Both the position numbers and the translations under genes were made by a program. DNA of 64,000 nucleotides from the NCBI GenBank assembly GCA_033064195.1, contig JARBJD010000028.1, forward strand, positions 362,491 to 426,490. The letters are read 5' to 3'. Of this stretch, positions 18,782 to 64,000 are shown in pieces. Each line of letters starts with the position of its first letter. Positions within the stretch are counted from its first letter, which is position 1. A model generated the notes under the pieces. It was given only the letters and a program-made list of their open reading frames with translations. It was not told where the DNA came from and did not search any database. Source of the DNA: Blattamonas nauphoetae. Lineage: Eukaryota > Preaxostyla > Oxymonadida.

Positions 18782-21700
18782 ATGTCTTGGATTCTGTCAG
18801 CAATTATCCTCCCTTTCCTGATCATTCCACAATATCTTGGTATTCACGACACTTTATCCAACAATCTCCCAGTTCTGGGACGTTTTTCATCGGAAGTCGG
18901 ATATCCACAAAAACAGATATTACACCTTCTGAATGAACACCGATTGATACCTACGATTCGTATTGAATCAAAATCAGTGACAATCATTGGACACAACGCC
19001 ACATTAACACATACCCCATCAGATCGATCTTCGCACCAAGAAATGAATCATTCTTTCTCGAGCTCGGACTTCATGTTTTTGATTTCCAACAGCTCATTTT
19101 CTGTTGAAGGAGTTCAAGCAGTTTGCAGCTTCGACCGAACAGGAATATGTCTCGTTCGTTCAAGCTGTGTCCACTTCTCGACAAGCAGCCTTCTGACGAA
19201 TGAATTCAACTCCCCATTTGTTGTGCAAGCATCAAACATCCTGTTTCCCGAATCTTCTTCAATCATTTTCCGTTCCTGCTCCTTAAAAACCCAAACCGAC
19301 AACATCCCGCCAATCGTGGATGTCTCTTCCACAACATCGATTCCCTCAAATGGGATGAATAATCCCGATTTTGGATCATATCAACCACTTTCTTCTCTTT
19401 CTGTTGTCGGAAGTGACCTCAGAATGGAATCACAGACACTTCATTTTGGGACAGGTCCTCTTCTCTCTTTCGACCTCGCACAACCCCGCCAGCAAGGTCT
19501 CCTCGCCTCCTCCGCTCTTCAGATGAACACTTTCCTCCAATTCTGCTCTCTTGTCAACATGAGCAGCCAAAACAACCAGCAAACACATCTCCCATCGCAC
19601 TCCCGATTCGGGTCAAATCTTGAACAAAAAGTGATTGGATGTGCCATATCGAACTCGACGAACCACCAGCACGGAACAACAATGATGGATCCTAATTTTG
19701 GAGGCTCTTTGGCCTGCCTCAACACATCGTTCGCATTCTGCGTCCGCCACTCCACCCCCAACGAAGAAAAGTCCGAATCGTTCAAAGACTTCGGCCAAGG
19801 CGACAGATTCCAAGTCGATACCGCCTCACCCCTCACGTCTATCTCATTCTTCCTCAGCACCTTCAAAGAAATGACCACGAGCCTTGACGGTGCAGCACTC
19901 CAGATAGGCGCTCCCAACAGTCCTCTGAACGTCACGCAATGCTTCTTCCATCTGTGCACTGTCACCAATCCACAAAAAAGTGGAGGTGCCATTAGTGTCT
20001 CCTACCAATTCACCAACCCATATCCAGTCGACATCACCCGTTCCTCGTTCACAAAATGTTCAACACCAACCTCAACCGGAGAATCTGCTGGTGCCCTTTA
20101 TAACAGAGCAGCCGCACCCCTCACAGTCGAAAACTGCTTCTTCGAAACATGCTCATCAGCTAAAGGTGGAGCAGTGTTCGTATGGAGGTCCGTGGTCAGT
20201 CTCTCCAACTGTGCGTTTGTTTCCTGCACATCGTCGACTGGTGGCGGTGGGCTGATGGTGAACGAAATCACATCAATGACCTTCTCTTCACTTCAGTTCA
20301 GAGATTGCGTGTGTTCGGGTCTCGAAAGTTCGAAGGACATGTACTTCAACAACACGGCAACTGATGTCGCCAACTCCAACACGATTGTATTCTGCGATTC
20401 CACTTCTGGCTCACCAAATGTGTATTTCAAATCAGATGGGACTGCTGACAGCACACTCGTTCCTCAGCTGACACCAAACATGAACAAAAACATCTCTTTG
20501 TTGGATGTGTCGATGGAAGGGAATAAAGCAACAATTACCATCCGAACGACAAGCGCCATTAATGGCACGATGGGAGTGCTTCTGGAAGGATCGAATGTCC
20601 CTCGTCTTGTTCATGTCCCGTTTGGAACCGCAAGCAGCACATCGACAATAGGAACAGTGGAAGTGTCGAAAGGAGATTATGGTGTCCTCCCCATCATCAC
20701 CGACGGACAGACATACAAACTGCGAAGTGTCAGCATTCCTGGATATTCACTCGCCGTCGTTCTCCCAGCGAAGGTCATGTCTGCTGAATCGGAGTGTGCA
20801 AATGGGATGTGCACCACGATTAACATTGTGTTGAGAGGCCAGGACTTTCTCACTGATCTAACCTTCCTTCTCTTTCTGGATGGAATCGACGAGCCAATCC
20901 CTTTCTCGTGTGAGACACAGACATCGGCGACAATCGGCCCACTTCGGATCGGAACAGGATTCGATCTGGCACACTCCACGACGTACACACTGATCTCCAT
21001 CATGGAAGACGCCATCGCATATCCTCTTCATATTCTGTGTGACGGCGTGACGTTCACAACGCCTCCGATTCCTCTTCTCTCCACTGTCCATGTCTGGTCG
21101 AGGAATGGAAACGATGCATTGAATTGTGGAAACGAGTCCGATCCATGCAAAACGATGGAGCATGCCTTCACTCGATTGAGCAATGGGAAATCGTCACTTC
21201 TGCTTCAAGGGACCTTCAACCACGTGTCAGTGTGGGAGATCCCGTTCTCGTCTCTGGTGCTCTCTCACAACAGAGGGTTTGATGAAGTGGGAAGCACAAC
21301 GACTCACTCGACAATTCGAGTTGGGGCAGACGGAGGGTTCATTGTGGATGGAGCGACAGCGACGAGATTTGACAGTCTCTCGTTCATTCTGCCTTCCTTT
21401 TCGACTGTTGAAGTGTACGCTGAAATCAAAACAGGCCTGCTGACAATCATGAATTGTGTGGTGACTGGAGATGTGTCGACATCATCCACGCTCTCGGCCA
21501 GACACCCTTCCTTCATCAGTACTCGGAATGTGATCGATTTGGTGCGTGTGAAGACAACACAACTGGAACATCTATCTGTGGCAACACTGTCGGCTCGACA
21601 GAGTGTCGGCTTGACACAAATCTTGAAATTGGAAGCAGAATCGATCGACACACAATCGACAGCAGGCTCAGCTGCGTTCTTCACACTCTCCAATACATCG

Positions 21701-23614
21701 TCACTGGACTTGTCATCGTCATCGTTCACCTCCTGCTCGTCATCGAACGCGAACTGTTTGGGCGGAGGAGTGTCGTTCTCGCTGTCTGGATCAGCATCTC
21801 TTGTGATCAAGTTCTGCTCGTTTGTGAGCTGCAGTGTCGGCGATGGAGGGAGGGGAGGAGGAATTGGATTGGCATTCTCGTCAGACAGCTCCAACAACTA
21901 TCTTCTGGACACGCTGGCATTTGCACACAACACCGCAACATTTGGGCGAGATCTCTTTCTGGTTGCTGAATCGCTGGAGAAATGTGTGTCGATTAATCAT
22001 TTCTTGTTCAATCTGCATCCACCTGGATTTGATCGCTCGAATGCTCTGTTTGGATCGGATCGTGTAGTTTACGTGGAAGAGACCGACCTGTTCCCGTTTC
22101 TCTTCCCCAACAATCGGTACAAGAACGTGTTCATCGATTCTGTGGATGAAACTGGCCAAGCGTCAACGAGCATGGAGTGTGGGAGAGAGTCACTCCCCTG
22201 CATGTACCTTCACGAAGCGATGGACCATCTGTTGAATGCTGACAGTGAAGAAGAATTGTCGCAGTGCGTGTTGGAGCGCAGTCTTGTTTTGATGGGTGAT
22301 CTCGTGTTTGGAGAGGAGGGTGATGTGGAATTGTGTGGATATGTGTCAGTTGGCCAACAGGCCGGTCTGGTTCTGTCCATCATCCCAATCCGCACTCACA
22401 AAAGAACACAGACAGACCCTGTCCAGTTTGGACGAGTTCGATTTACTCAAAGCGGAAGCATCGGATGCAGATTGTCGTTTGGTCTGAGCGAGATTGTTCC
22501 ACCCCAAACGGTGCTGCTGAAACACCTCGAGTTCGTGCTCCCTCTCTTCTCGACCCATCCTCAGCCGATCATCGCCGTCCAGTCGGTGTGTCTGTCACTC
22601 ATTGATTGTGTTGTGACGTCGATCAGCACAACACAAGCTGTCAGTTCGCTGTTGTCCTTCCACACCTCTCTCACATCGATGTCAGAGAGTGTTCGTCTGA
22701 GAGTGTCCAATCTTGTTGCTCAGAACATCATCCTCTCCCAACCCCTCATCTCCATCCGATCCACGACAGATCTTCCACTCTTGATGGATTCTCTGTCCAC
22801 TGGACATTCAAGCAAGCTCTCCCAAACCCTCCCCTTCTCCCTCCCGCCCTCTCTCTCCATCGAAGACTCCTTCTTTGATTGTGTCTCTCTTCGGATTGAT
22901 GCGACACACAATGACCCCATCGAGACTGGAAGTGTGTTGTTCGCCGATCTTTCTTTTCCGCTGAGCGAGCTGTTGATTCGTGACTGCTCGTTCTCGTCGT
23001 GTTCCACTGTCATCATTTCTCTTCCCGCTGAGTCAGATCTGCTGTCTTCATTGGCTTGCGGTGTCTGCTGTTTCAGTTTGGCCCGCTCGCATCTCACTCT
23101 GATCGACTCGTTTTTCGTGAATTGTTCTTTCCTTCTCGATGCATCTTATATTGTTCCTCCCTCTCCTTCACTCCTCGCTTTGACATCGCACGCTCTCGCT
23201 GTTCGATTCCTCCCCTCCCAAAATATCTCGCAATTAGCCTCTCCTCTCTCAGCTGCGAGCATCGACTCTCCTCTGATGGCCAAGATTCAGTCAGCCAATC
23301 TGGCCAACCCTTCCTTCCTTTTCGACGACACACTGAGGCAATCACCGCTTGCAAGCGGTCTGGAACTCGTTGGGGTAGAGATGGAAGCAGGATCCTCACT
23401 CGATCCAGCTCATCCTCTTCCCCTCGCACTCATCGTTAGCGAGCACTGCACACCTTCACTGACAGCTCACAGCTGTGTGTTCCGATTTGACGCAGCGGAT
23501 CCGGTGAACGTTGGACTTGCAGTGGTGCGTGCGCGTGGCGGAGCATGGCCGACTCCGCGGAACCTGCTGTTTGTGAACTGCACATCGTCTCGAAGAGAAG
23601 AAAACACCACATAG
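18782..23614 (+). CDS. Secreted serine-rich beta-helix (Pmp-like) surface protein, 1610 residues
   Basis: One uninterrupted frame. Residues 1-20 form a hydrophobic signal peptide. Up to about residue 560 the sequence repeats short beta-strand turns with GGAI/GGAV/GGGL words (SGGAISVSYQF, KGGAVFVW, GGGGLMVN) and Cys-Ser-Phe steps. This is the pattern of right-handed parallel beta-helices such as Pmp-type surface proteins. Two modules begin with a Cys-Gly...Pro-Cys motif (NCGNESDPCKTM near 21120; ECGRESLPCMYL near 22175), between which lie beta-sandwich-like and further helix turns. N-glycosylation sequons are frequent. Unlike the protein at 28149-34874 there is no membrane helix or kinase tail; it ends NCTSSRREENTT. 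So it is secreted or truncated. Likely role is cell-surface contact; ligand unknown. Confidence 0.8.
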   Translation: MSWILSAIILPFLIIPQYLGIHDTLSNNLPVLGRFSSEVGYPQKQILHLLNEHRLIPTIRIESKSVTIIGHNATLTHTPSDRSSHQEMNHSFSSSDFMFLISNSSFSVEGVQAVCSFDRTGICLVRSSCVHFSTSSLLTNEFNSPFVVQASNILFPESSSIIFRSCSLKTQTDNIPPIVDVSSTTSIPSNGMNNPDFGSYQPLSSLSVVGSDLRMESQTLHFGTGPLLSFDLAQPRQQGLLASSALQMNTFLQFCSLVNMSSQNNQQTHLPSHSRFGSNLEQKVIGCAISNSTNHQHGTTMMDPNFGGSLACLNTSFAFCVRHSTPNEEKSESFKDFGQGDRFQVDTASPLTSISFFLSTFKEMTTSLDGAALQIGAPNSPLNVTQCFFHLCTVTNPQKSGGAISVSYQFTNPYPVDITRSSFTKCSTPTSTGESAGALYNRAAAPLTVENCFFETCSSAKGGAVFVWRSVVSLSNCAFVSCTSSTGGGGLMVNEITSMTFSSLQFRDCVCSGLESSKDMYFNNTATDVANSNTIVFCDSTSGSPNVYFKSDGTADSTLVPQLTPNMNKNISLLDVSMEGNKATITIRTTSAINGTMGVLLEGSNVPRLVHVPFGTASSTSTIGTVEVSKGDYGVLPIITDGQTYKLRSVSIPGYSLAVVLPAKVMSAESECANGMCTTINIVLRGQDFLTDLTFLLFLDGIDEPIPFSCETQTSATIGPLRIGTGFDLAHSTTYTLISIMEDAIAYPLHILCDGVTFTTPPIPLLSTVHVWSRNGNDALNCGNESDPCKTMEHAFTRLSNGKSSLLLQGTFNHVSVWEIPFSSLVLSHNRGFDEVGSTTTHSTIRVGADGGFIVDGATATRFDSLSFILPSFSTVEVYAEIKTGLLTIMNCVVTGDVSTSSTLSARHPSFISTRNVIDLVRVKTTQLEHLSVATLSARQSVGLTQILKLEAESIDTQSTAGSAAFFTLSNTSSLDLSSSSFTSCSSSNANCLGGGVSFSLSGSASLVIKFCSFVSCSVGDGGRGGGIGLAFSSDSSNNYLLDTLAFAHNTATFGRDLFLVAESLEKCVSINHFLFNLHPPGFDRSNALFGSDRVVYVEETDLFPFLFPNNRYKNVFIDSVDETGQASTSMECGRESLPCMYLHEAMDHLLNADSEEELSQCVLERSLVLMGDLVFGEEGDVELCGYVSVGQQAGLVLSIIPIRTHKRTQTDPVQFGRVRFTQSGSIGCRLSFGLSEIVPPQTVLLKHLEFVLPLFSTHPQPIIAVQSVCLSLIDCVVTSISTTQAVSSLLSFHTSLTSMSESVRLRVSNLVAQNIILSQPLISIRSTTDLPLLMDSLSTGHSSKLSQTLPFSLPPSLSIEDSFFDCVSLRIDATHNDPIETGSVLFADLSFPLSELLIRDCSFSSCSTVIISLPAESDLLSSLACGVCCFSLARSHLTLIDSFFVNCSFLLDASYIVPPSPSLLALTSHALAVRFLPSQNISQLASPLSAASIDSPLMAKIQSANLANPSFLFDDTLRQSPLASGLELVGVEMEAGSSLDPAHPLPLALIVSEHCTPSLTAHSCVFRFDAADPVNVGLAVVRARGGAWPTPRNLLFVNCTSSRREENTT

Positions 23615-24020: not shown

Positions 24021-25094
24021 CTATTCAAGTTCTGCGATGTTTACTCCAAGTAAGCTGCTCACCAATTTCGAATAGTCCACAATATTGCGTCCATGATCTT
24101 CTGTTTCTTCGTTTCGCAGCCTCTGTTCTGTCACGTCTTCGATCCCCTCCATTCGAAAAGATCGAAACATTTTTGTCCCTGACCGACGAACATCTCCGCC
24201 TTGTTCATTCCATTCTTCCAGCAAACCGATCAGAAAGGCAAAAAACCGCCAGTTTGGCTCATCAACTTCGAAGAAAGTCATGCAACTTGGGATTGTGAGA
24301 ACGACAGCCTTCTGAATAATAAAATTCATTGCTGGTTGATGAGATTGTAGAAACATGGGTAGTTTGGCTAAGATTGCCATAAAACGGGTTGATTGCTCAC
24401 CATTGACGATCGAATAGCGGTTCAGGCATAAATGGTGAATATACTCCTCGGAAGGGGCGAGCACTTGCTGTAAAACCGTCTCGTGAACAGTGTGGCGTTC
24501 ATTCCGATCTTGGATTCCGAGTTCTGCGAGACCATCTGGAGTTGCGAGCCAGACAGACTGGGACATGGTTGCCATGAGGTTGATGTGGATATCGACTGCT
24601 TGTGTAAAGGAAAGAGATGGTGGGTTCAGAGCGAGGATGAGTTTAGGGATCAGATTAGCCCTGACGAGGGTAAGAACGACGTTCGTTGAACAGGATCTGA
24701 TTAGAGTTTTGACCATCTTCATTGCGGCTGTGGTAACGGCACGATTGGGAGAAGATGCGAGCATCACTATTGATTGTACGAAGTCGGTCAGAGATTCATC
24801 AGACAACGATGCAAGGCAGGTGAGAAAAACGTCAGGAGATGCTCGATTCTCCGGAATCAAAGATGACAGAACATTCATGGTTTTAGTCTCCAGATAGGCA
24901 TTAAACTTATTCTGAAACTTCATCGTGGTAACAAGAGATCGAAAGACATCTGCTTTTTCATCGTCAGTTTCTTGTTGATTTTGACTCCAGCCTAGGAAAG
25001 GTGTGGAATCGCCTGAAAGAATTACTTTATTGGAACCCGAACCAGAGCGTGTTGAACTCAAGGTGGGGGCCATTGTATAGACAATTGTGTTCAT
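24021..25094 (-). CDS. ARM-like solenoid family protein, copy 1 (357 residues)
   Basis: Single open frame from MNTIVYTMAPT to the TGA-type end near 24021. The N-terminus is Ser/Thr-rich, then comes the family opening STPFLGW, an acidic stretch, and about ten amphipathic helices (for example SLSDESLTDFVQSIVMLASS and VKTLIRSCSTNVVLTLVRAN). The family core 'QQVLAPSEEYIHHLCLNRYS' lies near residues 205-225, and the C-terminal 'EGIEDVTEQRL' near 330. The regular pattern of small and Leu residues fits ARM/HEAT repeats, which act as binding scaffolds. No signal peptide or membrane helix. Three close paralogues occur in this window, all on the minus strand. No partner can be named from sequence. Confidence 0.75.
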   Translation of the reverse strand: MNTIVYTMAPTLSSTRSGSGSNKVILSGDSTPFLGWSQNQQETDDEKADVFRSLVTTMKFQNKFNAYLETKTMNVLSSLIPENRASPDVFLTCLASLSDESLTDFVQSIVMLASSPNRAVTTAAMKMVKTLIRSCSTNVVLTLVRANLIPKLILALNPPSLSFTQAVDIHINLMATMSQSVWLATPDGLAELGIQDRNERHTVHETVLQQVLAPSEEYIHHLCLNRYSIVNGEQSTRFMAILAKLPMFLQSHQPAMNFIIQKAVVLTIPSCMTFFEVDEPNWRFFAFLIGLLEEWNEQGGDVRRSGTKMFRSFRMEGIEDVTEQRLRNEETEDHGRNIVDYSKLVSSLLGVNIAELE

Positions 25095-25908: not shown

Positions 25909-26979
25909 CTATTCAAGATTTGGAAGGTTCCTTCCAAGCAACCAGCTCAACCAGATCGAACTGGACTTAATATATCGTCCCATATTTTCTGTTTTATCGT
26001 TTTGCATCCTTTGCTCCATCACATCGTCAAACCCTTCCATTTTCAAAGATCGCATGATTGTTGTCCCTGAACGACGAAAATCTCTGCATTGTTCGAGACA
26101 ATCAGCTTGAAAATTGATCAGATTGGTGAAAAGCCGCTCAATTGACTCATGATTCTCGAAGAAGGTCAGACAACTTGCGATCGCGAGACAGACTGGCATA
26201 CGAAGAACAAAATCCATTGTGGGTTGATAAGATGGACATGTTTGGAGGAGTTGGGCGAGGAGATCCAGAAACCACTCGCATTGATACCCATCGACGATCG
26301 AATATCGGTTCGCGCACAAATGGCGAATATAGGTCTCCGAAGGGGCGAGAACTTGCTTCAACACCGTCTCACAAACAGCTTGTTGTTCATCGTGACTGTC
26401 GCTTTTAAAATCTGTGAGAAAAAGCAGAGTGGCGAGCATGACACCATAGGTGACGTTGGAAATGAGATATGTGTGGATAGATTGGGCGTTGGTAAAGGAA
26501 AGAGACAGTGGACTGAGAATGGTGATCAGTTGAGGGATCATATCAGCATTGACGAGGGCAAGGAGGACTTGAGACGAACAGGATGCGATAAGTAAATTGA
26601 GCATATTTATCGTTGTTGAGACGATGATCTGACTGCGTGAGGAAACGAGTACCACAATGCACTGTATCAATCCGGTTAAAGTTTCATCAGATGGCGATGC
26701 AAGACTGCTGATAAGAGCGTCTGAATCTCCGCCATCCGGTTCCACAGATGCGAGAAATTTCACTGCTTTAGCTTTCAAAGAGTTATTTAATGAAGGCTGG
26801 GACTTAACTGTGGCAACAAGAGACCGAAAGATAATTGGTTGTTCGTTTTCAGGTAGATGTTTTTCCGCATCCCAATTTAGGAAAGGAGAGCAATCCATTG
26901 GAAATGGCAATGGAGCGGAAGCCAAGTCAGTGCGCGTTGTACTTGGTGAGGTGCTTATTGTCTTGATTATCGTGTTCAT
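25909..26979 (-). CDS. ARM-like solenoid family protein, copy 2 (about 356 residues)
   Basis: The open frame extends further upstream, but the start at 26979 (MNTIIKTISTSPSTT) aligns with the other copies; the extra 22 upstream residues are hydrophobic and include what looks like a leader or intron with a GTAAGT donor near 27042. Family landmarks in order are SPFLNW, 'VFRSLVATVKSQPSLN', 'SPSDETLTGLIQCIVVLVSS', 'KQVLAPSETYIRHLCANRYS' and 'EGFDDVMEQRMQND'. The sequence is helical and solenoid-like with no catalytic motif. Together with the downstream module at 25357-25780 it is collinear with 43365-44988, so gene and 3' flank were duplicated together. Confidence 0.75.
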   Translation of the reverse strand: MNTIIKTISTSPSTTRTDLASAPLPFPMDCSPFLNWDAEKHLPENEQPIIFRSLVATVKSQPSLNNSLKAKAVKFLASVEPDGGDSDALISSLASPSDETLTGLIQCIVVLVSSRSQIIVSTTINMLNLLIASCSSQVLLALVNADMIPQLITILSPLSLSFTNAQSIHTYLISNVTYGVMLATLLFLTDFKSDSHDEQQAVCETVLKQVLAPSETYIRHLCANRYSIVDGYQCEWFLDLLAQLLQTCPSYQPTMDFVLRMPVCLAIASCLTFFENHESIERLFTNLINFQADCLEQCRDFRRSGTTIMRSLKMEGFDDVMEQRMQNDKTENMGRYIKSSSIWLSWLLGRNLPNLE

Positions 26980-27117
26980 TACGTCGGATTGAGAGAAGAA
27001 AGCCTCGAAATGGGTCAGAATAAAGAAAAAAAGAACACTTACCAACTCTCCTGTGAAGAGGATAGGCGATATGTGAATATTGTTTCTCTCATATGGCGAG
27101 CTTGCAGATTTAATCCC

Positions 27118-28148: not shown

Positions 28149-31100
28149 TTAGCACTCATCCATGTTCTGCTTATCCATCGCTGGTTTCCCCAACTCCGCA
28201 TCCGAATCCAGAAGCGACAAGATCTCATCCAGTGTCGGCCTCTCTTTCGGATCCAAACTCAGACAGCTTCGAACAAGCTCAATCTTCGATTGGTTCGTCC
28301 ACGAGTCCATCAGCGGCAGCGATCCTGTCCCCAGCTGTCGTTGAGCGTTCACAGAATCAATTTCACCGAAAGGCACAAGACCAGTCTCCATTTCCCACAA
28401 GATCAGGCCAAGACTAAAAACTGCTGCTTTGCTTGTGTCAATCTCCACTTTCTTATTCGCCACTTCTGGCGCCACCCATCGCTGTTCTTCGATGTGTCGA
28501 GTGGACGTGTTGGCCGTCGTTGTTTGTGAGAAAAGGGAAGCATTCGCAGTTGAGAGTGTCTGAGGGAGTGGTTCTTGTTGTGTCACAATGGTCGCTTCCA
28601 TCGGCTTGTGTTCTGATCCGGGAAAGAACGAACCTTCACGAATGTTTTGTTGGACACTCACGCTTTCCTCTTTCATTTGGAAGAGAGGAGTGTCTTGTTC
28701 ATCCAGAAACACCCACAGCGGCGATAAACACGTCAGAATCGGCATTTTCGGGTTATGTTTGGCAATCTGAGCGAGTCCTTGTGTGATCATTCGGAAGACA
28801 CGTTGTGACTCGAGTGGTGGGCCTCCCTTGTGCAGTCTGTTGTAAAGTGTGTTGTTCACATTCACAGGCACTTCAACCAGCTCCTCCTCACATCTCACCG
28901 CCATCTTTGTTTTCGCATCACTATGAACTCGGTTCTCACTATACTGACTATCGACTTGCTTCAATGTATCCTTCGCTGGGAGGACACTGGAGCCGATTGT
29001 GGTTGGGAGATTGTGATTAAGCATGTTGTTTGTGTGGGGTTCCCTGATTTGGGCGACTGTCCCGAGCGGTTCTTCCATTTTCTCGACATCGATTGGTGTA
29101 TGCTGATCCATTTCTTGGTTTTTCAACAAAGTTGCTGTGTCATCTTTCTGTTGTCTCTTTCTTCGACAGAGCAACACGATTGTCAGAATAAGGATGAAGG
29201 CTACGACAGCGACGATCACTGGGATCAGCCAGAGAAGTGCTTTTTTGGTTTTTTCGAGTGCCTGTGCTTTCTTTTCTGCTGCATCGCTGATTTTGAGCAC
29301 AATGTGGTTGTTGGTGCTCTGATTGTGGCCAAAGGCGAGTCTGGCACGGATTTCGAGTGTGTGGTCGATGTCTTGGATGGAGGACTGATCCAACAGGAAA
29401 TTGACTGAAGTGTCAGTCCATTCCGACGAATTCAAGCCTGCCAACTCGATCGTTGTCGATCTCTTCTCCACTTTTGCCTTTTCGTCCCACTCCATCACCT
29501 CCAATCCCAACCCACACGGCATCAGAACCGATCCAACAAGCGACACATCATACGATTCATTTGAGTACTTCGATTTAGTCTTGTTTGAGTCCAACGTCGG
29601 GATGAAGAGTGCTTTCGTCCCATCCACACTTGTCGAGTGGAGATGACAGTCATCAAGAGCCATCCACGGAGAAAGATCGTCTTCAGTTCCATCTCCACTT
29701 CGCAGCTTACCAATCCGAACGTCTCCCTCACCTGAACACAGAATGTTTCGTCTGGCTGATGGGAAGAGGTCATGGTTTGGTGTGTTGTCTCTGAAGATCG
29801 AGTCGTCGATGGTGATTCTCCCACCCTTCATGTTCAGTGCTCCTTGTGGGAGTTCATGGAACTTCGTCCAGTCGACTGTGGTTGTACAGTTGTCGAGTTG
29901 AATCACTCCGCTTGTCCACTCGCAGACTGAGAGGGAGTTGGAGTTTGGTGGAGGGATGTTCATTCCATCAATCACACATTCATTCAAAACAATCGTCGAA
30001 TTCACTCCGAGTAGGAACACAAACGATTCTGACATTGTTTCAACAGCAACTTCAACTGCCTGGAGCTTCAACGTGCCTTCGGTCACTGTGATCAGAGCAG
30101 ACTCATCTGGATATGTCGCAGAGGCAGGGATTCGGATGATTCCATTCACGTGCATCCCATTCTCGATCAACACGGAGATATCTTTCGAAATGACAAACGA
30201 TTCTGTTTCTTTCGTCTCTTTCAGAATTTTGAGAGTGACTGCGACGTGTTCGAGACCAGCAACGATGATCCATGCCTTTTGAATCGACGCACAAGGATTG
30301 GTTTGGTCGCCACACATCAGATCATCAGAAGTCGACGAGTGATTAACAAACAAAGTGATTGTGGGTGGCTTTGGCTTTGTGGTGAACTTGTCTGCTTGTT
30401 TCCTGATGGGAGCTTCACTGGATTCTTCTCTCAGTTCATCAATTGTGTATTCCGTCTTGTATTGGAGAGTGTCACCCCAACCAATTGCGTGTGACCCGGT
30501 TTCTCCTTCCTCCGGCGTCGAGAACGTCACAGCGAATGTCTCGCCAGATGTTAATGTCAGAATGTAGTTCTGGTTGACTGTCATATTTTCTGTTTTTAGA
30601 ACAAGTTTGTAGGACGTGCAAGGCGAGTTGGTGAATTCGAATGAGATGGATTTGAAGAGAGCAGCGACGGGGGCAGTGAATCGCTTTGCTTTTGGATTGA
30701 TGACGATTGGATTCGAGTTCTTCGTGATCTGTGCGATCGTGTAAACTTGACCAAGGATGACATGTGGAGTGACCAAGTCGTCAGTTGAAATTGAACATGA
30801 AAGTATTCCATCTCCATCGTAATCGAGAGGAACAACAAAATCAGTGTTCGATGCAGCCGGTTGGAGAGTGAGTTCATACACACCAGAAGCGAAAACTCTT
30901 CCTTCAAATGTCAGAGTGACTTGTTTGGCATCTTCACTCAGTACTGGCGTCACTTTCTCCAATCTGCTCGGTTCGTCGGGGATCTTGAACGTGAGAGGAG
31001 TGTCGATGTAATCAGCTGACGACAGAGACACAATTCGATATGTCTCACCATATGCCAGTGTGAGTGTCGGGTACAGAGAGATCGACACTGTTCCGGTTGA

Positions 31101-34100
31101 ATCATCTCCAGATTGGGTGATGGAGACTGGAAGGGTGATTGTGTTCGCTTCTGTTTCGGAACCAGATGGAACAGACGACAGAACAACTGTCAGCGTCGCA
31201 TCTCCAGCGGGGAGTTGATGGCCAGACAGTGTCAGTGATGTCGTGTTCAGATCGTCACCATTCTCAAGCGATAAAATGGAGAGAAGACGAGTTGGTTCAG
31301 CATTCGTGGTGAACGTGATGCCAGAGTGGACGATCACGGGTGTATCAGATTTGTCTTTCACTTCGGTCACAACATATTTCGTGTTGTATTTCAGAACACT
31401 CGATGGATTTCGGTAGAGTGTTTCAGTTGTCGTCGATGTCGTTCCATCAGAATTGAATGTCAGCGTGAGTATCGTTGTCGACGATCCATTCACTGACAGT
31501 GTCGCTGTGTAGGGTCCATTCGTCATCACTCTTCCCTCCCAACTCAAGCTGATCGCTTTCTTATCATCTAAATGGTCAAATTGTGCAATTTTCACCAATC
31601 TGCTCGGTTCTGTTGACATTTGAATCGTAAAATGTGTCGTAACGAACATTTCATCGTCGATCCCTGTCCGATTCATCGACCACGCGAGATACGAGTGACC
31701 ATAAACGAGTTGTGGAGTGGGATACATCGTGATATCAAGCAAACCATCCGATCCGGATGAGAATGAGACTTCCACGTTCACATACAAAGACTCACTGGTT
31801 TCTATGTAATGTGTGGAATCGAGGAGTTGGAGTGTGGTATTTCCAATTGGCATGTTGTCACCTGTCATTCGAATGGAGACGACAGTAACATCGTCATCGA
31901 CTGTGGTCGTGCCTTTTGAGAGAAGCCGATGGCGAGCAGGAACAACAGTGAAGGTCATTCCACTCGTGAAGAAGATTTGTCCAGTTGACGCAGTCACACC
32001 AATAACCTCGTATGTCGCTCCAAAAGTGAGATTCGTCGTTCCTCCCGTGTTATAAATGTATTCTGTACGGCTTCCTGTTTGCGGAGTGTCGAAGATCACA
32101 TTGAATGTGTGTGTTTTTTGTGTCGCAGTGTTTTTCACGGTCATTGTGTGGCCAGTTGCAACACAGTTGATTCCTGAGAATGAGAGAGTGAGCTGTGTGA
32201 ATAGTGAGTCGTATGTCTCTTCTGTGATTGCTGTGATCCGCGCTGGTTCTGAAGGCGTTGTCATTGCTGTCTCTGACTGTACCACAAAGATTGAAGTGCC
32301 TGCTGCTTTCACCGATGCATCTGTGATCGTGTATTCCGTGTCGAACAGGATCTTCTTGTTCTCGCCATAGATTGGGATGGACAAGGGTTCAGAATCTCGT
32401 TCTTCCATTGTTTCTCCATCCTTCACAGAACCAAACACGACATCGAATGACAGATCTCCAGGAGTCAGTTTGATGGTGTATGTTCCAACTGGCATCTGTC
32501 TTCCTCGAACTCTCACAATCAGATGCTCGCCTGTGGAATCAAAGCCGGCGTGTGTCATTTTGATGAGTCTTGGCGGTTCGTCAGGCGTGTTGAAGTTCAC
32601 AGCAAGGGGAAGAATGAGAGCACGTCCCCACAGATCCTTCACAGAAACAATTTCATAATCCGAGGCATATTTCAGTTCTGCTTCAGAGATCGGATATGCT
32701 CGGCCAGTTGCAGTGAGAGTTTTCCCATCGCTTCCAATGGCAAGTGAGAGGGTTCGGTCTTCGCCTCCAGTTTTGACGAGAATCGAGTATCCAGGTCGGA
32801 CGAGTCCATCGCAATCGAGTGAAATGTCGATCAGTGTCTCCAAATCGTCGTTGAATGAGATTGCGTTGGTCTTCACTCGAAGTGTATGCACAAGCCAGTC
32901 ATTAACTGCTATTCTTCGGATGTTATATTCAGCAGCTGGTGATTGGATCAATTCAGCGTCTCCCACATCAACAGTGCATGACGCTGTTGTTGCTGCTGTT
33001 CCAAAGTCGAATGTGAGCGAGCGAGGGATGGGTGGAGGAGAGGAGGGTGTGGAATCCAAGTTCTCCACCACAACAACCATCTCCCCAGTCACTGCATCTC
33101 CAACTTCGATTGTGAATGTTGCTGTGTCATCCCCGTTCTCAATCCCCGAAAACGATTTCACAAATGTCTTCTTTGTGATAGTTGTGAACAAGTCGTCGTG
33201 CGAAGTTCTCACATTATCTCTGACCGCTTCACAAATGAGCTGCGACCGAGACGACTGGCAGTTCTCCACACAGTCCCCACTGAAGTCGAAATTGGACGCA
33301 TGAACGTAGAAATCCCTCGCTTGATCGTTCTGAGTGTCGACAAATCGGAGGGACGAGATGAACAAGTTGTACGGCGTTCTGAAGCAAAGTGCTGACCCGT
33401 TTGTGGGTGAAGTTGCGAAAGCACTTTCGAAGATCGAGTTGGACACAGACGATGTGGCAGCGGCACGTGCGTTGAGAACTGTCACTGCTGTTCCGAAGCC
33501 ACTGCTTTCGGTTTGGTAGAAAACACAGTTCGATGCAATGAATGGACACGGATCATTGATCGTAACCACCCCATTCGCGCTCGCACACTTGCACCGAACA
33601 ACCACACACGACGAGAATGTGACTGAGTAAGTGGTGGAAACTGGACAGACGTACACAGCACCTGCCGAGCCCCAGGCCGAGGTTCCCTTGCAATTGAAGA
33701 AGGAACACTCGTGGATTCTGGTGTTGCCGACCGTTTTCGAGAAATGGATGGAAGAGGCATTGGTCGACCCGCTCATGTCTTTGAATGTGCAGCGAGTGAT
33801 TTCGAGATCTTGGACCTGTGCGACAGATGCAGCGGTGATGGGATCCGTTCCCGTTCGGTGGGAGAGTGTGTAGGTTGGGTACTCGTCCGATTCAACGAGA
33901 GTCGATGAACATTTCGCGAAGGACGAATTTGTTGCGAGAAATGATCCGCACAGGTTTACATTTGCGACAGCTGTTCCTGAAAAGTGGTTGGTGCTTTCTC
34001 CCACAACACACGAGATCAGAATCTGGTTGGTTTGAGGGAACAGACGTCGTGTTGTTTCGGGAGCGAGGCTGGAGGTATTGGTGAGTGAAGAGTGAGTGAG

Positions 34101-34874
34101 GGAGATTGTTGTCGAGGGAACAGCCGTAAATAGCGGTGAGAGCACTCCAAAGTCGAAAAGAGGGCCAGTTCCGAGGCGGAAGTAAATGTCGTCCAGATGA
34201 AGACCTGACCCATGCACAACAGTCGTGGCAGCGTCAAAACCATCCTCAGCGAAACTGCGAGTGGATGTGTGTTGTTTTGATGGCCGAGCGAGGCTTGTCA
34301 AAGGAGGCAGTGAGATCACATTTCGACTTGTTGGTTCAAACTTTGTGGACAGAATTGAAATCGACGAGCTGCTGGATCCGCCTCCACTTGAAATCACAAA
34401 CGGCGATAGCGAGCCTTCTGTGAGGATCGTGCATTCTGACACCGAAAGCGTTGACGAGTCAACTTCAATCATCGCGTGTTTCGGGGTCATCAGATGGAAA
34501 ATGAATCCTTCCATGGACAGAGATGTATTCAGAATGGAAGCAACGAACGTGGATTCTTCGAGAGAATTCGACAGCGGTTCCTGCATGTCTTTTCCAACTG
34601 ATATTTCTGACAGGCCAAGATGGCTGGAATGGACGAATGGAGTGTTGTTTCCTTCAAAAGACAGCGTTTGAGATGAGATGTGCATTTGAGCTCCGTGCAA
34701 AACCGAATTCAGAGGAAAGCGAACGGTTTGTTTCGATGAAGATGTTTGTCTATTCCTGAGTTGGTCATTCAAGACAGATGACAGAGACACAGGAGAATAA
34801 ACGTCTAATAGTGGCACAAGATTCTGGGCAAGCCCATTGAGAGCAAATACACAAAAAGAAGAGAGCAGAATCAT
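28149..34874 (-). CDS. Receptor-like protein: signal peptide, beta-helix, tandem beta-sandwich repeats, membrane helix, pseudokinase (2241 residues)
   Basis: One frame. Residues 1-17 are a signal peptide. About 20-560 is beta-helix-like, with Ser/Thr/Asn-rich turns and Cys-Ser-Phe-Phe steps. About 600-1420 holds tandem repeats of some 100 residues that open with a Glu-Pro-x-Arg-Leu word (EPPRLIKM, EPARITAI, EPSRLVKI, EPTRLLSI, EPSRLEKV) and contain a 'YG-x-TY-x-I' strand, like Ig-type sandwiches. Near 1523 a Cys-Gly...Pro-Cys motif (MCGDQTNPCASI) opens a second beta-helix. A membrane helix (WLIPVIVAVVAFILILTIVL) lies near 1885-1905, followed by CRRKRQQ. The C-terminus has kinase C-lobe features: WVAPEV, FSLGLILWEMETGLVPFGE and LDPKERPTLDEI. 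The N-lobe lacks a glycine loop and AVK, LSPLWVFLDE replaces HRD...N, and no DFG is seen, so it is a pseudokinase. Likely role: surface sensing with scaffold-type signalling. Confidence 0.85.
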   Translation of the reverse strand: MILLSSFCVFALNGLAQNLVPLLDVYSPVSLSSVLNDQLRNRQTSSSKQTVRFPLNSVLHGAQMHISSQTLSFEGNNTPFVHSSHLGLSEISVGKDMQEPLSNSLEESTFVASILNTSLSMEGFIFHLMTPKHAMIEVDSSTLSVSECTILTEGSLSPFVISSGGGSSSSSISILSTKFEPTSRNVISLPPLTSLARPSKQHTSTRSFAEDGFDAATTVVHGSGLHLDDIYFRLGTGPLFDFGVLSPLFTAVPSTTISLTHSSLTNTSSLAPETTRRLFPQTNQILISCVVGESTNHFSGTAVANVNLCGSFLATNSSFAKCSSTLVESDEYPTYTLSHRTGTDPITAASVAQVQDLEITRCTFKDMSGSTNASSIHFSKTVGNTRIHECSFFNCKGTSAWGSAGAVYVCPVSTTYSVTFSSCVVVRCKCASANGVVTINDPCPFIASNCVFYQTESSGFGTAVTVLNARAAATSSVSNSIFESAFATSPTNGSALCFRTPYNLFISSLRFVDTQNDQARDFYVHASNFDFSGDCVENCQSSRSQLICEAVRDNVRTSHDDLFTTITKKTFVKSFSGIENGDDTATFTIEVGDAVTGEMVVVVENLDSTPSSPPPIPRSLTFDFGTAATTASCTVDVGDAELIQSPAAEYNIRRIAVNDWLVHTLRVKTNAISFNDDLETLIDISLDCDGLVRPGYSILVKTGGEDRTLSLAIGSDGKTLTATGRAYPISEAELKYASDYEIVSVKDLWGRALILPLAVNFNTPDEPPRLIKMTHAGFDSTGEHLIVRVRGRQMPVGTYTIKLTPGDLSFDVVFGSVKDGETMEERDSEPLSIPIYGENKKILFDTEYTITDASVKAAGTSIFVVQSETAMTTPSEPARITAITEETYDSLFTQLTLSFSGINCVATGHTMTVKNTATQKTHTFNVIFDTPQTGSRTEYIYNTGGTTNLTFGATYEVIGVTASTGQIFFTSGMTFTVVPARHRLLSKGTTTVDDDVTVVSIRMTGDNMPIGNTTLQLLDSTHYIETSESLYVNVEVSFSSGSDGLLDITMYPTPQLVYGHSYLAWSMNRTGIDDEMFVTTHFTIQMSTEPSRLVKIAQFDHLDDKKAISLSWEGRVMTNGPYTATLSVNGSSTTILTLTFNSDGTTSTTTETLYRNPSSVLKYNTKYVVTEVKDKSDTPVIVHSGITFTTNAEPTRLLSILSLENGDDLNTTSLTLSGHQLPAGDATLTVVLSSVPSGSETEANTITLPVSITQSGDDSTGTVSISLYPTLTLAYGETYRIVSLSSADYIDTPLTFKIPDEPSRLEKVTPVLSEDAKQVTLTFEGRVFASGVYELTLQPAASNTDFVVPLDYDGDGILSCSISTDDLVTPHVILGQVYTIAQITKNSNPIVINPKAKRFTAPVAALFKSISFEFTNSPCTSYKLVLKTENMTVNQNYILTLTSGETFAVTFSTPEEGETGSHAIGWGDTLQYKTEYTIDELREESSEAPIRKQADKFTTKPKPPTITLFVNHSSTSDDLMCGDQTNPCASIQKAWIIVAGLEHVAVTLKILKETKETESFVISKDISVLIENGMHVNGIIRIPASATYPDESALITVTEGTLKLQAVEVAVETMSESFVFLLGVNSTIVLNECVIDGMNIPPPNSNSLSVCEWTSGVIQLDNCTTTVDWTKFHELPQGALNMKGGRITIDDSIFRDNTPNHDLFPSARRNILCSGEGDVRIGKLRSGDGTEDDLSPWMALDDCHLHSTSVDGTKALFIPTLDSNKTKSKYSNESYDVSLVGSVLMPCGLGLEVMEWDEKAKVEKRSTTIELAGLNSSEWTDTSVNFLLDQSSIQDIDHTLEIRARLAFGHNQSTNNHIVLKISDAAEKKAQALEKTKKALLWLIPVIVAVVAFILILTIVLLCRRKRQQKDDTATLLKNQEMDQHTPIDVEKMEEPLGTVAQIREPHTNNMLNHNLPTTIGSSVLPAKDTLKQVDSQYSENRVHSDAKTKMAVRCEEELVEVPVNVNNTLYNRLHKGGPPLESQRVFRMITQGLAQIAKHNPKMPILTCLSPLWVFLDEQDTPLFQMKEESVSVQQNIREGSFFPGSEHKPMEATIVTQQEPLPQTLSTANASLFSQTTTANTSTRHIEEQRWVAPEVANKKVEIDTSKAAVFSLGLILWEMETGLVPFGEIDSVNAQRQLGTGSLPLMDSWTNQSKIELVRSCLSLDPKERPTLDEILSLLDSDAELGKPAMDKQNMDEC

Positions 34875-52088: not shown

Positions 52089-55000
52089 ATGGGCTTCTTC
52101 TTCATCATACTCTGCGTGCTCCAAGTCATAATTTGTTCTGAAGATGACTCTCCACCCCTTCAGAAGAGATATATCTCCGAAAAGATCACAATGGAAGAAC
52201 ATCAAGCAACCAACAACCGCAACAATGAACAAATCATCCAGTTCCCAATCGGAGAGTTTTGGGGAATCGATCAGACCATTGACTCGCAATCCCTCTCTCT
52301 TCTCGGCTCGAATGGAACAGTCTTTCTCGTTGACACTCCACATTCACATCAACCATCCTACCAGATTTCTCTTTCACCACATCGTTCTTCATTGTTGATG
52401 ATTTCGAACTCGTCATTGTCTCTATCGTTAATTACTTTTGATATTTCCGACCGATCTGAGATTTCCCCAAACACACACAAATCCCGCGTTGGAAACGATA
52501 CGCTCCCGATTTGTGCCCATCTGACCCATTCCACAGTTTCTTTTCGTGAATCAACATTCGTTATATCTTCTTCCACACCCCCATTCACTATTTCCTCGTC
52601 GCCTTTTGGAAGCTCTTCAACATCTTTAACTATGATTGATTGTGCCGTGAAGAATGTCAATTCGATTTTTCCAGCCCTTTCATCGATTGTGAATGAAAAT
52701 GGGAATCCTCTCTCAGTTGAAGTCACGATTTGTGGCTTTTCGCAGCATTCCTCACTTTTCACTGACTTTGAAGGCGTTTGCTGTTCCACTGATCCGATTT
52801 CGGAATCTGTTTCTGTGCACAACACGTTATCTTCGATTCGCCTCTCGAACATCACGTCCCTGACCTCCTCGCGCTCACCCTCTCGTCTCCACTCATCAGA
52901 CCGAATGATTGGGAGTGAATTTGTGGGAGTCGAGAATTGTCTTTTTGGGACAGCGGTTCCTCGACTTGGATCGTCTCTCTCGCTCCTTTCTCTCAACTCG
53001 ACGTTCATCGAATGCTCAAATGTGAACGATCGCCCACAAAATGGAGAATCGTTCGACTTTTCTGTTCAATCGACATTTGACCGCACTCAGTTCTCTTCGC
53101 AGCAAGACGCTCAACACTTCGAGAACTGCCACTTCACATCGACAACACCAACGTCGTCGTTCAACATCATTGAATACTCTGAGTTTGGTGGTTCGTTGAA
53201 ATTTGTGGGAAGCTCATTCGAAGTCGTTGTTGGAACGAAGCACATTGGAGTGATGAAGATCACCACCAAGAAAGAAGTCTTCCCTCTTTTCGTGTTTGAC
53301 AGGAGCAGCGTGACATTCTCTCGCTCGGATGGAGTTGTTTCGTCTGACAGCCAGTTCACCTTCGTCTCCTCACCCAGCACACACTTCGCATCGAGCAACT
53401 TCACTGCTCCTCCAACATCGACATCAACTGGCACCCGAGCACTCTTCTTCTCGTTGTCCATCGCGTTTACCACGATCACCAACTGCGTCTTCGAGAAGCA
53501 GGCCACAACAGGTCCTGGCTCCACTCTGTCCGACAACTCCCTCTCGTCTGTCATTCTGATCACCTCGTCTATCTTCACCCACAACACTGCTGATCGGGAT
53601 GGGGGGTCACTTTACGTAACTGCTTGTTTTATGCGCATGTTCCACTGCCACTTCGAGTGCAACACAGCAGCTCTGCAAGGCGGGGCGGTCTTATTAGCTT
53701 GGCCCCATTTTTTGAATTTAGAGGATGTCCATTTTGTGAGCAACCACGCAAATCAAACATATTCAACTGCCAACCCCTCACTCGCTCATTATCGGGGGAA
53801 TGACATCGGGATGTATGCTGTGTCAGCGAATGGCGTTATCAACTCAATGATCGGCTGCACATCAACATCTGTGAGCCCCAAGATTGGGTTTTATGCCACC
53901 ATCACCACGAATGGGAATGTGACCAACGAGGATGAGTATCTCCCAAATCCCACAAACACTTCTCAGCCAACCGCTGCGGGTGAGTGGTGGATGAGTGAGG
54001 ATGGAAGTGGAGAGACGTGCTCAGAAGCAACACCATGCAAAACGATGTCAGCCGTGATCACAGCAATCTCGTCTTCAGAAACGACGAGAGCAGGATGGAA
54101 CAAAGTGAATGTTGGAGTTGGGCTGTTCTCAGAATCAGTTTCGCCGCAATCGTCGCTGTCGTTGTCAGTTGAGTTTGTTGGGAGTGGATGGGACCGAAAC
54201 AGCTCGACGTTCACAACTGTGGAACTGTCGTTGTCAGTTGATGGGAATGCGAACATCTCGCTCACATCTCTCTCCCTCCTCCCTTACTCCGCGAACTCTC
54301 CGATTCTGAAAATGGAATCAGCAACAGCGAAGGTTCGTTTGGCGAATGTTTGGATTGAAGGAATCTCTTCCCACAGCACTCACCTCTTCTCGTTCTCGTC
54401 TGGCTCAGCGACATTCCATCTTTGTGTTCTGAACACAATCACTCTGACCTCGTCGCCAGCGATCTCTTTGACTGGATCGTGTTCGTTGACGATGACTCGA
54501 TGTTGGGTGATGGAGATTGAGCGAAAAGGAGGAGATGGAGGAAGTGTGATTGACTCGTCGACGAGTGGAACGATTTCGATTTCGGAATCTGATTTTGCTC
54601 GCTGTGTCTCTTCTGGCTGTTCTGGTTGCCTCTCCTTCTCGTCATCGTTGAGTTCGAGTGCTGTGAAGTTGTCGAGTGTTTATTTCTCAGACAATGTTGG
54701 GAACGAGACGGATCAACCAGGAATCACAACTTTCGCGAACGATCTCTCCTTTTCTGGTTTTGGACCGACACAGATCTCGATTTCTGCCGTTCAATCGATC
54801 AGTTTCCAACCGCACTGTCTCACTGACTCCTCTCTCTCCTCCTTCGATTCCATTCCTCTCTCGTTCGATGACTATGGAATTGATTTCCCAGTTTCACCTC
54901 GATTTGACAGAGGAACTCCACTTTCCCGTTTCGCCACTCTCAACGAGTTGTGCATGAGTCTAGAAGCTAAAAATGCAGTAACGATCACAATCAGAACGGC

Positions 55001-58000
55001 TGTTCAGCAATCCCTTCGTGCGATGTTATTCGACGCCAAAAAAATCACGATCAGATATCCTCCGATCCTTCTGGACCTCCAACACGGCGAGACAATCACT
55101 CTCCTCGACTCGTCCTATTTCCGACTGAATGATGTCAAACTCACCATCCCCACTTCACTCACAACAACTCCATTCGTCCTCGAGAGTTCATCCGCTCAAC
55201 TCTTGTTTGTGGGTGGATCAATCGTCTTCTCAGAACTGTCTCATTCAGAAGCCTTCATCCGCAGCAGCGACGGCTCAATCACTTTTTCCGGCGTGGCCAT
55301 CACGAAGAACCTTCGCTTTGAAAGTCATTCATTCGTTGAAAGTGTTGGAGGCAGTTTCACCGCACAATCGACTCTCTTCGATTCATTTACAACGACATCG
55401 GATGGAGCTCTTCTGAATGCGAAAGGAACAACAGTGGCGAGTTCGTTGTCGTCGTATGTGAATTGCACTGCCAGGAATGGAGGAGCACTTGCAGTTGAAC
55501 TGAGCAAAGCAAGTTATCTTCGAGTGGTCCACGAGCCAACTTCGAAATATGATGTGACCTTCAAAGACTGCATGGCAGTTGGAGAGGATGGAGCGAGAAC
55601 AGACCCGAAAGGGAAGGGAGGAGCGATTTTTGTGAACGGCTCGTCGACTTCTGCCAAACCGATCCAACTGTCAACGACGACAACGGACGATGCTCGATTT
55701 GAAGAGAACTTCGCAGGAGAAGGAAATGACATCTTTGTTTCGAGGTCGGTGTTCAACGGGAAGAGTCTGGACTCGATTTCTGGATTTGGAGGAGGATCAC
55801 ACTCTGAAGACTTCCGTGTTGTGGTTGAAGGGCTGGACTCGAGCAAGGAAGAAAAAGATGCAGTCCAAGCGAAACTACTTCCGTCACCAAAAGTATCAGT
55901 GAATGGGAGTGTTGTGGACGATTTTGGAGGAGTGAGTGGGTTGGACACAGAAGCGTGCAAGTGGACATCGTCGTTCTGTGCGACGTTGGGATATGGAGTG
56001 CGATTTCTGACACAGCGATATCTGAATGGATCATCGATTCCTCAAACGATCCAATTTCTGCACAACATGACATACACTGAGGAGAAGATTGAGATTGTTG
56101 GTCAAGACGTGACAGTTTGTGGAACGACATCGAAAGATCTGTCAAAATCGACGATCAGCCGAAGTCTTATCTTGATCGACTCGTCGATTTCGTCAGGATC
56201 GTTCCTTTTCTCGGTTCGAGAGGAAGGGAAGTTGAGAGTGACGAATCTGGACATCAATTGTGATTCATCGAGTGGAGTGTTTGACTTGACATCGACAGGA
56301 TCGTCGCTTTGGATTGAAGAGATTGGATTGGTCTGTTCAGTTGGACCGACACACTCTTGTCCTCTGATTCGAGTCCAGAATGGACAGATCCAGATTTGTG
56401 GAAGTGTGATCAACACAACACACGGATCATCTGGATCGGCGTCGTTCTCGTCTCCGATTCTCTCCTGTCTCTCTCCTTCTGCCTCGATCAGCCTCTCCTC
56501 GACTGTCTTCTCGTCGTTTTGTTCGAGCAGTGTTCTTGTTGAGATGACGACGAATGAAGCGATTTCGATGAAATCAGTGTCATTTGTTGATTGTTCGAGA
56601 TCTGACTCCTGTGACACTCTGGTTCTTGTTTCATCGTCGAATCTGGATCTGGTTGTGACTCCTTCACTTTGGGAAGAATCCTTCACTCCAACCACTTCTC
56701 TCACGCACTTCATGTCCCGCAACACGAATCTGTTGTCTTCGGATGAGTTTTATGAATCGTCTCTTCTCTTCTATCTGCTTGTTCCATCAGAGTCGATTGT
56801 GTGTGGATCGTCGAATGACGAAGCCAGTACTCATCCTGGTTGTGGATCAGATCGCCTTCGATGTTCTTCGATTGACTCTGCAATCCTTTCTGCGATGACG
56901 ACTCTGCTAAAAACGATTTTGGTGAAGACAGATGTGGTTGTGGAGGATGCCGTGTCAGTGACAGCGAGCTTGGAGATCAAACCTGACACAACGACAATGC
57001 GTGAAGTGTCGCAAGATGGATCGTCGTCGTTGGAAGTGGATGGATTGTCTGCCGTCCTCTCCCTCTCATCGCTCGCTTTCTCGTTCTCGTCAACAAACAC
57101 ACTGGTCTCGTTCTTCGTTGTCAAAACAGGAACCCTCTCCCTCTCGTCGTGCCGAATCGGAGAAGCCACCACACCTCAAACCCTCTCAAGCTCAATGACA
57201 TCACTCTTCGCTGTCTCTTCGTCTGGAGTGCTGACATTGGTGTCAACCACGATCACGAATGTTCGTTTCAGCCATCCAACGTCAGGATCGCTGATTGACC
57301 TCTCACTTGGAGCGTCATTGAACATTAATGCTTCTTCTGAGGTGTCTGAGATCTGGTCGAATGGGAAAGGAATGATTGTGTTTGTTGAGAGTGAGAGTTT
57401 GGAATCGACAGCGTCTCTCGACTCATTCCAGACTCTGAAGAAGTCGATCGCAGTTCCAACGACTCGTCCTTTCTCAGAATCAGAAAAGAAAGAGTTTGTT
57501 GGGAAGGAAGGAACGATGGAAGAAAGCCTGCTGTGGCACTGGTTTCCACACACCGCATCGAACTCGACAGTTGTGGTGAGTTTGTCTGGAGAAGACCATT
57601 CGAAGTGTGGTCTGTCTCTGCTTCCCTGCCATTCAGCTGAACATGGATTCGATTCGCTGAAGAACTCGAACAGCTTGCTCGTTTTGGAGAACGATGATTC
57701 TCTCTCTTCGCTGCTGACCACCAAACTGACATCACAAACGATTTCATCTCAAACAAACCGACAGACTTTGACAGTCACCTCGTCTGGGTCGTTCTCAGTC
57801 TCAGCCGACACTTCACTTGGTCTGCTCTCTCTTTCGTTTGTGTCGACAGTCGCATCTTCGTCTGTGTCGTTTGTGGATGTTGCTTCTGGAGCGTCACTCA
57901 TCGTCTCAGATTGTTCGTTCACATCGTTCTCATCGCGTGTCTCTGGATCAGTTGTGTCTGGAAGGATCGTTTCTGGGAAGAAAGTGGAGATTGGAGAGAG

Positions 58001-63318: not shown

Positions 63319-64000
63319 ATGGCTGACAAAATCAAGGTTCCCGAAGGATGTATGTCATGTTTTTGTTCGTTACATCTGACTTTCGATTGTGGTTGTTGTT
63401 CAGATTCATGTGTTCGGATCATCAACTCCGGCGGCTTTGGGACGGTTGTGGAATTGATTGAAAAGCAACGGAAACGCACTATGCCGGAAAGATGGTGCAA
63501 TGCTTGACGCAGAAAGACATTGAGCGCTTCGACCGAGAGGTTGGGAGGCTGCAACGATTCTCGCATTCTCGGATCATCAAGCTGAAGGAAGTAGTCGCGA
63601 TGGACAACACGAAAGTGATGGTGATGGAATTGGGAGGAAAGTCACTTGCAGAAATTGTGAAAGATTTAACGGAAAGGAAAGAACTGATGGCACGAGTGGC
63701 GTGTTTCTAAATTGCCGTTTTCATGTTATCCATCATCCTCTGTTTTATTTTTCTCCTTATTGTCCTGATATTGTGGTTGTGTTGATTGTTTCAGGACGTC
63801 TATCGAGTGATGGAGGATGTGGCATCGGCGCTGGAATATATGCATTCGGAGAAAGGCGGGAAGACAACGCATGGCGATATCAAAATGGAGAACATACTGA
63901 TCGACGCAGATGGCCATGCGAAACTCTGTTTGTCTCTTCTTTGTCTCTCACTGTCATCATTCTCTCTATTATCTTCGTTTTCTCGAACAGGTGATTTTGG
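63319..64000 (+). pseudogene. Kinase copy 3, frameshifted in the N-lobe, truncated by the window end
   Basis: Exons 63319-63349 (31 nt), 63404-63695, 63795-63927 (133 nt) and from 63991 reproduce the family gene structure. Exon 2 has GGFGTVVELIEKQ, then after about 63475 the family sequence continues only in the next frame (YAGKMVQCLTQKDIERFDRE). Exon 2 is 292 nt against 296 in the other copies: one codon shorter at its end and one base missing, which accounts for the frame change. Later motifs are intact: HGDIKMEN and DFG (the other copies have DLG). If the base is really missing the gene is dead; an assembly error would restore a kinase with the canonical DFG. The window ends just after this motif. 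Confidence 0.7.

Follow-up and report, generated by a model that had tools for sequence, protein, structure and literature searches.

The open reading frame at 28149–34874 on the minus strand of the window (the 64,000-nucleotide stretch of Blattamonas nauphoetae DNA analysed here) encodes a protein of 2,241 amino acids from its ATG, which we infer to be a type I membrane protein with half a kinase as its tail. Judged by its profile matches, this tail is the C-lobe of a eukaryotic protein kinase, running from alphaD to alphaI, without a detectable N-lobe. The gene belongs to a very large family. Our preferred reading, to which we give a probability of roughly 60%, is that the family consists of single-pass surface receptors or adhesins whose half-kinase tail serves as a non-catalytic docking platform. 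The ectodomain would vary and contact ligands or neighbouring cells, and the conserved alphaF–alphaG face would recruit a shared cytoplasmic partner, such as an active receptor-type kinase or an adaptor of the cytoskeleton or of endocytosis. Once bound or clustered outside, the proteins would bring this partner together on the inside. The anatomy, the homology, the loss of catalytic residues, the size of the family and the constraint on it are shown by the data below; the surface location, the ligand, the partner and the signalling are steps that we infer. Because the tail is dead by sequence yet kept, with a conserved alphaF–alphaG face, the docking of partners is its most likely role.

Layout of the protein and its ectodomain

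The frame is open throughout (2,269 residues from stop to stop), and the motifs WVAPEV, GLILWEMETG and ERPTLDEI, picked out in the initial annotation of this DNA, all lie in it. All features of the gene are on the minus strand. A hydrophobic stretch at approximately residues 1–17 (34824–34874) resembles a signal peptide, with a hydropathy peak at residue 2 (1.64 in 19-residue windows). It is followed by an N-terminal ectodomain (residues 18–567; 33174–34823), around nine tandem repeats of about 100 residues each, probably Ig/FN3-like beta-sandwiches (residues 568–1502; 30369–33173) and a membrane-proximal ectodomain (residues 1503–1881; 29232–30368). The single strong hydropathy peak, with a mean of 3.31 at residue 1884, places a transmembrane segment at residues 1882–1903 (29166–29231), where one had been proposed ahead of the kinase C-lobe. 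This segment is conserved among paralogs. Two weaker peaks are also present in the ectodomain, at residues 1617 (1.69) and 1777 (1.42). On the basis of hydropathy, the protein may have the architecture of a single-pass membrane receptor, with an N-terminal signal, one transmembrane segment and a cytoplasmic domain of the signalling type.

One repeat was modelled with AlphaFold2, with the window's own repeats as the only input; the model has seven strands and a pLDDT of 83.6, and supports the earlier description of the repeats as tandem sandwiches. The regions on either side had been read as two beta-helix parts of a Pmp-like protein. Pfam gave no match in residues 1–567 or 1503–1885 (the latter being the span used for queries) at E ≤ 10, and NCBIfam gave no POMP match at E ≤ 1 in these regions or in residues 1904–2241; the label Pmp-like is therefore without profile support. 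Below the cut-off, NCBIfam matched one DNA polymerase subunit (E 0.18) in the scanned parts and, on the tail, three kinase models. Residues 1503–1885 were matched, at 30–83% identity, in 12 of the 13 paralog stretches tried; two of these stretches (L019 and L040) come from one gene, and the sole miss, L042, has 65 residues upstream.

Residues 18–567 are homologous to the neighbouring ORF at 18782–23614 on the plus strand (BLASTP E 4e-24). This ORF encodes 1,610 amino acids with a signal-like start, a hydrophobic peak at residue 1263 and no kinase match; it may be a relative that is secreted or anchored in another way, or its last exon may have been missed. A neighbour that is related in its ectodomain but lacks a kinase tail, together with the very large, repeat-built and adhesin-like ectodomains of the family, would fit proteins that are mainly structural adhesins, their tail being an anchor or sorting signal for trafficking or cytoskeletal anchorage that passes no signal inwards. 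We consider this unlikely, though credible: conservation peaks on a kinase C-lobe and not on a short motif, a point that is not decisive.

Other ORFs of the window also deserve mention. Those at 52089–58190 and 58187–61759 on the plus strand (2,033 and 1,190 amino acids) look beta-helix-like by eye and share four bases, which they read in different frames; they may be a single gene interrupted by a frameshift or an intron. The first of them has a POMP_repeat match in NCBIfam that lies below the cut-off (11.4 against 15 bits, E 0.22). The ORFs at 24021–25094 and 25909–27045 on the minus strand appear by eye to be paralogs of each other, with similar starts, lengths and ends, and would represent another local gene family.

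The kinase-like tail

From the membrane inwards, the tail begins with a poorly conserved juxtamembrane stretch (residues 1904–1989; 28908–29165) and two predicted strands with a hinge, which may be beta4–beta5-like (residues 1990–2008; 28851–28907). AlphaD, alphaE and a dead catalytic loop come next (residues 2009–2058; 28701–28850), then a low-conservation insert at the position of the activation segment (residues 2070–2127; 28494–28667) and finally the APE motif with alphaF, alphaG, alphaH and alphaI (residues 2131–2232; 28179–28484).

The kinase C-lobe that the initial annotation had placed at the C-terminus was recovered, with scores above the curated thresholds of Pfam. The Pfam model PF07714 scored 39 bits on the tail (cut-off 23.1, E 7e-10; model positions 157–257 of 258) and PF00069 scored 37.6 bits (cut-off 31.7, E 2e-9; model positions 154–259 of 263). 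These matches span residues 2120–2221 and correspond to the second half of each model only. All 22 aligned family members match both models at E ≤ 0.01. When a profile of 22 paralog tails was compared with the PDB, 512 sequences were found at E ≤ 0.001. TAK1 was the best of them (4e-16), followed by MLKL, TNNI3K, ILK, MLK1, DLK, CTR1 and B-Raf. PTK7 is also among the PDB matches. We take the best matches (TAK1, MLKL, ILK, B-Raf and others) to be kinases of the TKL group. The TAK1 alignment falls into two parts: a strong one from the APE motif to alphaI (54.8 bits) and a weak one over alphaD, alphaE and the catalytic loop (5.9 bits, i-E 59), which alone is non-significant.

A second profile (A3; 12 sequences) covers only the juxtamembrane stretch up to the catalytic loop. 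At E ≤ 10 it matched three kinase sequences in the PDB, the best with E 0.0069. Two of them are named GCN2; the third is named only as a Ser/Thr kinase and is aligned over the same residues. All three matches start at the hinge (TLYDLIHSE...HRNLKPMNIFIDES against TLfnrLHk...LtrLsPlwvfLDeq in the profile). Upstream of the hinge, no kinase homology was found with Pfam at E ≤ 10 or with profile A3 against the PDB. Kinase sequence is thus recognisable only from the hinge and alphaD onwards, and no N-lobe is detected.

The juxtamembrane stretch of 85–105 residues could instead be an N-lobe that has diverged beyond recognition, making the tail a full pseudokinase, possibly nucleotide-binding as some pseudokinases are. 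The distance between the membrane and alphaD could just fit a small N-lobe, and MLKL and ILK are among the best PDB matches. Against this stand the profile results above and the alignment itself, in which no column before alphaD has glycine above 40%, the best lysine column reaches 38 of 59 tails, the mean entropy is 2.77 bits and none of the 85 columns reaches 90%. We therefore regard a diverged N-lobe as rather improbable. The structure prediction that had been suggested for the tail adds little: an AlphaFold2 model of residues 1911–2241 from a single sequence has a pLDDT of 34.9. It shows a coil over the juxtamembrane stretch and then strand, strand, alphaD, alphaE, strands and helices, an order that fits a C-lobe, with a confidence too low to count. 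A Foldseek search with this model gave 17 matches up to E 10 and none at 0.001; no kinase stood out from the noise, AMPK being at rank 6 (E 6.0).

An alignment of 59 tails, from which two short sequences of the original 61 were left out, shows which residues are lost and which are kept. The HRD aspartate is found in none of the 59; the triplet reads L-T-R in the family profile and L-T-C in the gene of the window, where HRDLKPxN has become LTCLSPLW. DFG is absent at the aligned place from all 59 tails, with a register uncertain by a residue or two. The catalytic asparagine is kept in five tails and is usually replaced by tryptophan (48/59), and the alphaF aspartate is missing throughout (0/59), with A, S, T, C or P in its place. 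Genome-wide, a degenerate DNA pattern that encodes [AST]VFxLGLxLWE finds 458 sites (its reversed control finds none), and a version led by aspartate finds no site. The control was a set of 14 other kinases of the same genome (L001–L006 and L088–L095), several of them part of very long frames, which in and near the kinase domain look ordinary: all 14 have HRD or HCD, 13 have DFG and one has DLG. With no detectable N-lobe, ATP site or catalytic aspartate, the tail should not phosphorylate; it should be catalytically inactive, with neither the usual ATP binding nor phosphate transfer. The earlier assignment as a pseudokinase thus holds in that the tail is dead by sequence (no HRD, DFG, glycine loop or AVK), but not in the sense of a whole kinase domain, since N-lobe homology is absent. 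At about 63400–64000 on the plus strand, the window also contains ordinary-looking kinase pieces (HGDIKMENILIDADGHAKL), apparently split by introns and cut off by the window end.

Other positions are strongly kept. The APE glutamate is present in 58 of the 59 tails, as is its arginine partner. The most conserved stretch runs from alphaF to alphaG, where the family motif PFxExDxxNAxRQxGxG is near-invariant and E300, D302, A306, R308 and G313 (tail numbering) occur in every tail. AlphaG is usually variable between kinases. The conservation of alphaF–alphaG could reflect folding instead of docking.

Family size, selection and the codon-frozen block

Described at first as an unusual receptor, the protein is no single oddity. 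We searched 88,311,006 bases on 837 contigs, among which the window is C201:362491–426490. The tail of the window gene alone gave at least 125 matches. Four divergent members, added as queries to make five in all, brought the total to at least 390 distinct loci, spread over 188 contigs, with matches within 1.5 kb of each other counted as one (611 of the 655 table rows were used, the others being pieces of listed loci). This count is far from saturated, since 247 of the 390 loci were found by just one of the five queries and it draws on the best 110–130 candidates per query. On contigs C1–C99 there are 95 protein-query loci and 100 listed sites of the 19-mer described below, with 53 in common; scaled to the genome, the union is about 580 and a capture–recapture estimate about 740, both rough. 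The open frames around 121 of the 125 matches from one query (the four left out are pieces of two loci) reach at least 1,000 amino acids in 87 cases and at least 2,000 in 37. On this evidence the tail is not a separate gene, and ectodomain, transmembrane segment and tail share one frame in paralogs too. No member with an intact N-lobe was found among the 59 full-length tails and a few shorter stretches, out of the at least 390 loci.

Selection was estimated as omega by the NG86 method in 11 paralog pairs. It is 0–0.24 from alphaD to the catalytic loop and 0.08–0.57 from the APE motif to alphaI, and the C-lobe stays below 0.6 in all 11 pairs. The values are 0.12–0.63 for the insert (one pair undefined), 0.14–0.46 for the juxtamembrane stretch and 0–1.67 for the transmembrane segment (30–31 codons; above 1 in two of the 11 pairs). 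As the juxtamembrane stretch is also constrained, low omega values are not confined to the C-lobe, and single values are rough because dS is small in some pairs. Gene conversion may distort both dN and dS, and the frozen codons described below lower dS between APE and alphaI. The half-kinase tail is maintained by purifying selection. The word degenerate, used in the initial annotation, is therefore misleading if taken as decay, given also how consistently the APE glutamate and its arginine partner are retained. A decaying relic, with tails drifting after loss of function in a family kept alive by gene conversion, would explain the loss of all catalytic motifs and the in-frame stops at some loci (one of the 39 tails L048–L086, several further loci and L117), but it is very improbable in view of the C-lobe omega, the conserved APE–arginine pair and the 38 of 39 tails that carry no stop.

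Within alphaF, the codons themselves are nearly fixed. This block covers tail codons 279–293 (28383–28427) and includes S283 as AGT in 50 of 51 tails, E292 as GAG in 57 of 57 and L284 as CTT in 52 of 59. At many positions outside the block that are just as invariant, such as L344 and R341, codon use is near the family average; exceptions are E266 (GAA, 58/58) and L176 (CTG, 43/52). For tail pairs that are 20–29%, 30–39% and 40–49% identical, the share of identical residues that also have an identical codon is 0.59, 0.70 and 0.87 inside the block, and in the rest of the C-lobe it is 0.45 in each class. In windows of seven codons and pairs below 45% identity, the observed/expected ratio peaks at 1.9–2.4 over codons 277–289. 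Elsewhere it is about 1.0 in the juxtamembrane stretch, mostly 1.0–1.5 in the rest of the C-lobe and 1.5–1.75 in the catalytic loop. The 19-mer CAGTTTTTAGKCTTGGCCT at 28405–28423 is the window's one copy of a sequence with 391 exact copies in the genome, against none for its reversed control. Twelve listed copies of the 19-mer from outside the 390 loci were fetched; each is in frame within an additional member of the family, one of which, L117, has a stop soon after.

Simple codon bias does not suffice as the cause: under the usage outside the block, the codon choice for AVFSLGL has a chance of 6.7e-5, yet 43 of the 59 tails have the exact 19-mer. That count is inflated by relatedness, and the codon comparison within the alignment is the fairer test. 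RNAfold structures differ among six members and the consensus fold of the 59 tails contains no pairs, so a shared RNA hairpin or other shared RNA structure is not supported. The block could be a shared nucleic-acid element or the product of very short-tract gene conversion; short-tract conversion sustained by conservation of the protein is still a good null. A more speculative and distinctly unlikely extension is that a repertoire of about 580–740 receptors is coordinately controlled, with the frozen codons as a nucleic-acid address and the dead half-kinases sharing one effector. Such an address might be, for instance, a single small-RNA target or a recombination site common to most members, through which the cell would silence or switch the whole receptor repertoire. 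Silencing or switching of whole repertoires has been proposed for surface-antigen families of protists. The block offers a concrete and testable prediction on the regulation or homogenisation of hundreds of paralogs.

Known systems and candidate partners

The KIND domain is described as a free-standing kinase C-lobe that works as a protein-interaction module (PMC3415841, PMC11231147). The present family resembles it, at the sequence level, in having a C-lobe without an N-lobe. Pfam gave no KIND match for the window protein at E ≤ 1 or for 22 members at E ≤ 0.01, and the library scanned presumably contains a KIND model. To our knowledge, the named KIND proteins are not single-pass receptors. 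The KIND domain of Spir is reported to have no G-helix, its place being occupied by the partner peptide (PMC3415841), whereas the alphaG region of the present family is present, hyper-conserved and its hallmark. The portions of the two KIND papers available to us mention no comparable expansion (PMC3415841, PMC11231147). With alphaG present here and absent in Spir KIND, the principle is shared and KIND membership is not shown; as far as profiles can tell, the family is KIND-like in principle and not a detected KIND member.

The PTK7-type receptor pseudokinases and the TKL pseudokinases ILK and MLKL, which are among the PDB matches, are likewise dead kinases. They have both lobes, whereas no N-lobe is detected in the present family. 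In Giardia, Neks are given as 198 of 278 kinases and as mostly inactive (PMC3218828), a similarly massive metamonad expansion of mostly inactive kinases; those are Nek kinases, whereas the present family is TKL-like. In the oxymonad Monocercomonoides exilis, ‘protein tyrosine kinases’ are listed among the largest gene families and overlap with unclassified repeats; their kinase domain is not described, in the portion of that paper available to us, as dead or lacking an N-lobe (PMC8767320). The present family, which matches PF07714, may be their counterpart. Searches on the Monocercomonoides kinome literature found nothing related, and no description of an N-lobe-less receptor family was found in open-access titles and abstracts among the top-ranked matches of broad searches. 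If our reading is true, an oxymonad has made half a kinase into the intracellular plug shared by one of its largest families of surface proteins, and has done so independently of the KIND domain, as a parallel to it on a large scale. The expansion of ‘protein tyrosine kinases’ in M. exilis may then be one of inactive half-kinases and would call for a recount.

At C47:116000–119400 on the minus strand (L099/L104) lies a complete kinase (VAVK, HSD...N, DFG) with an N-lobe and a hydrophobic segment (3.16), and with long inserts that follow beta3 and interrupt the activation segment; it is a possible partner of the half-kinase tails. The closest non-family match of the family profile is at C187:28000–29000 on the plus strand (L100), which scores 100.9 bits, whereas none of the other frames tested exceeds 30.4. 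Its alphaF contains AVFS, HRD is absent, and its open frame lacks a strong hydrophobic segment, the best reaching 1.51.
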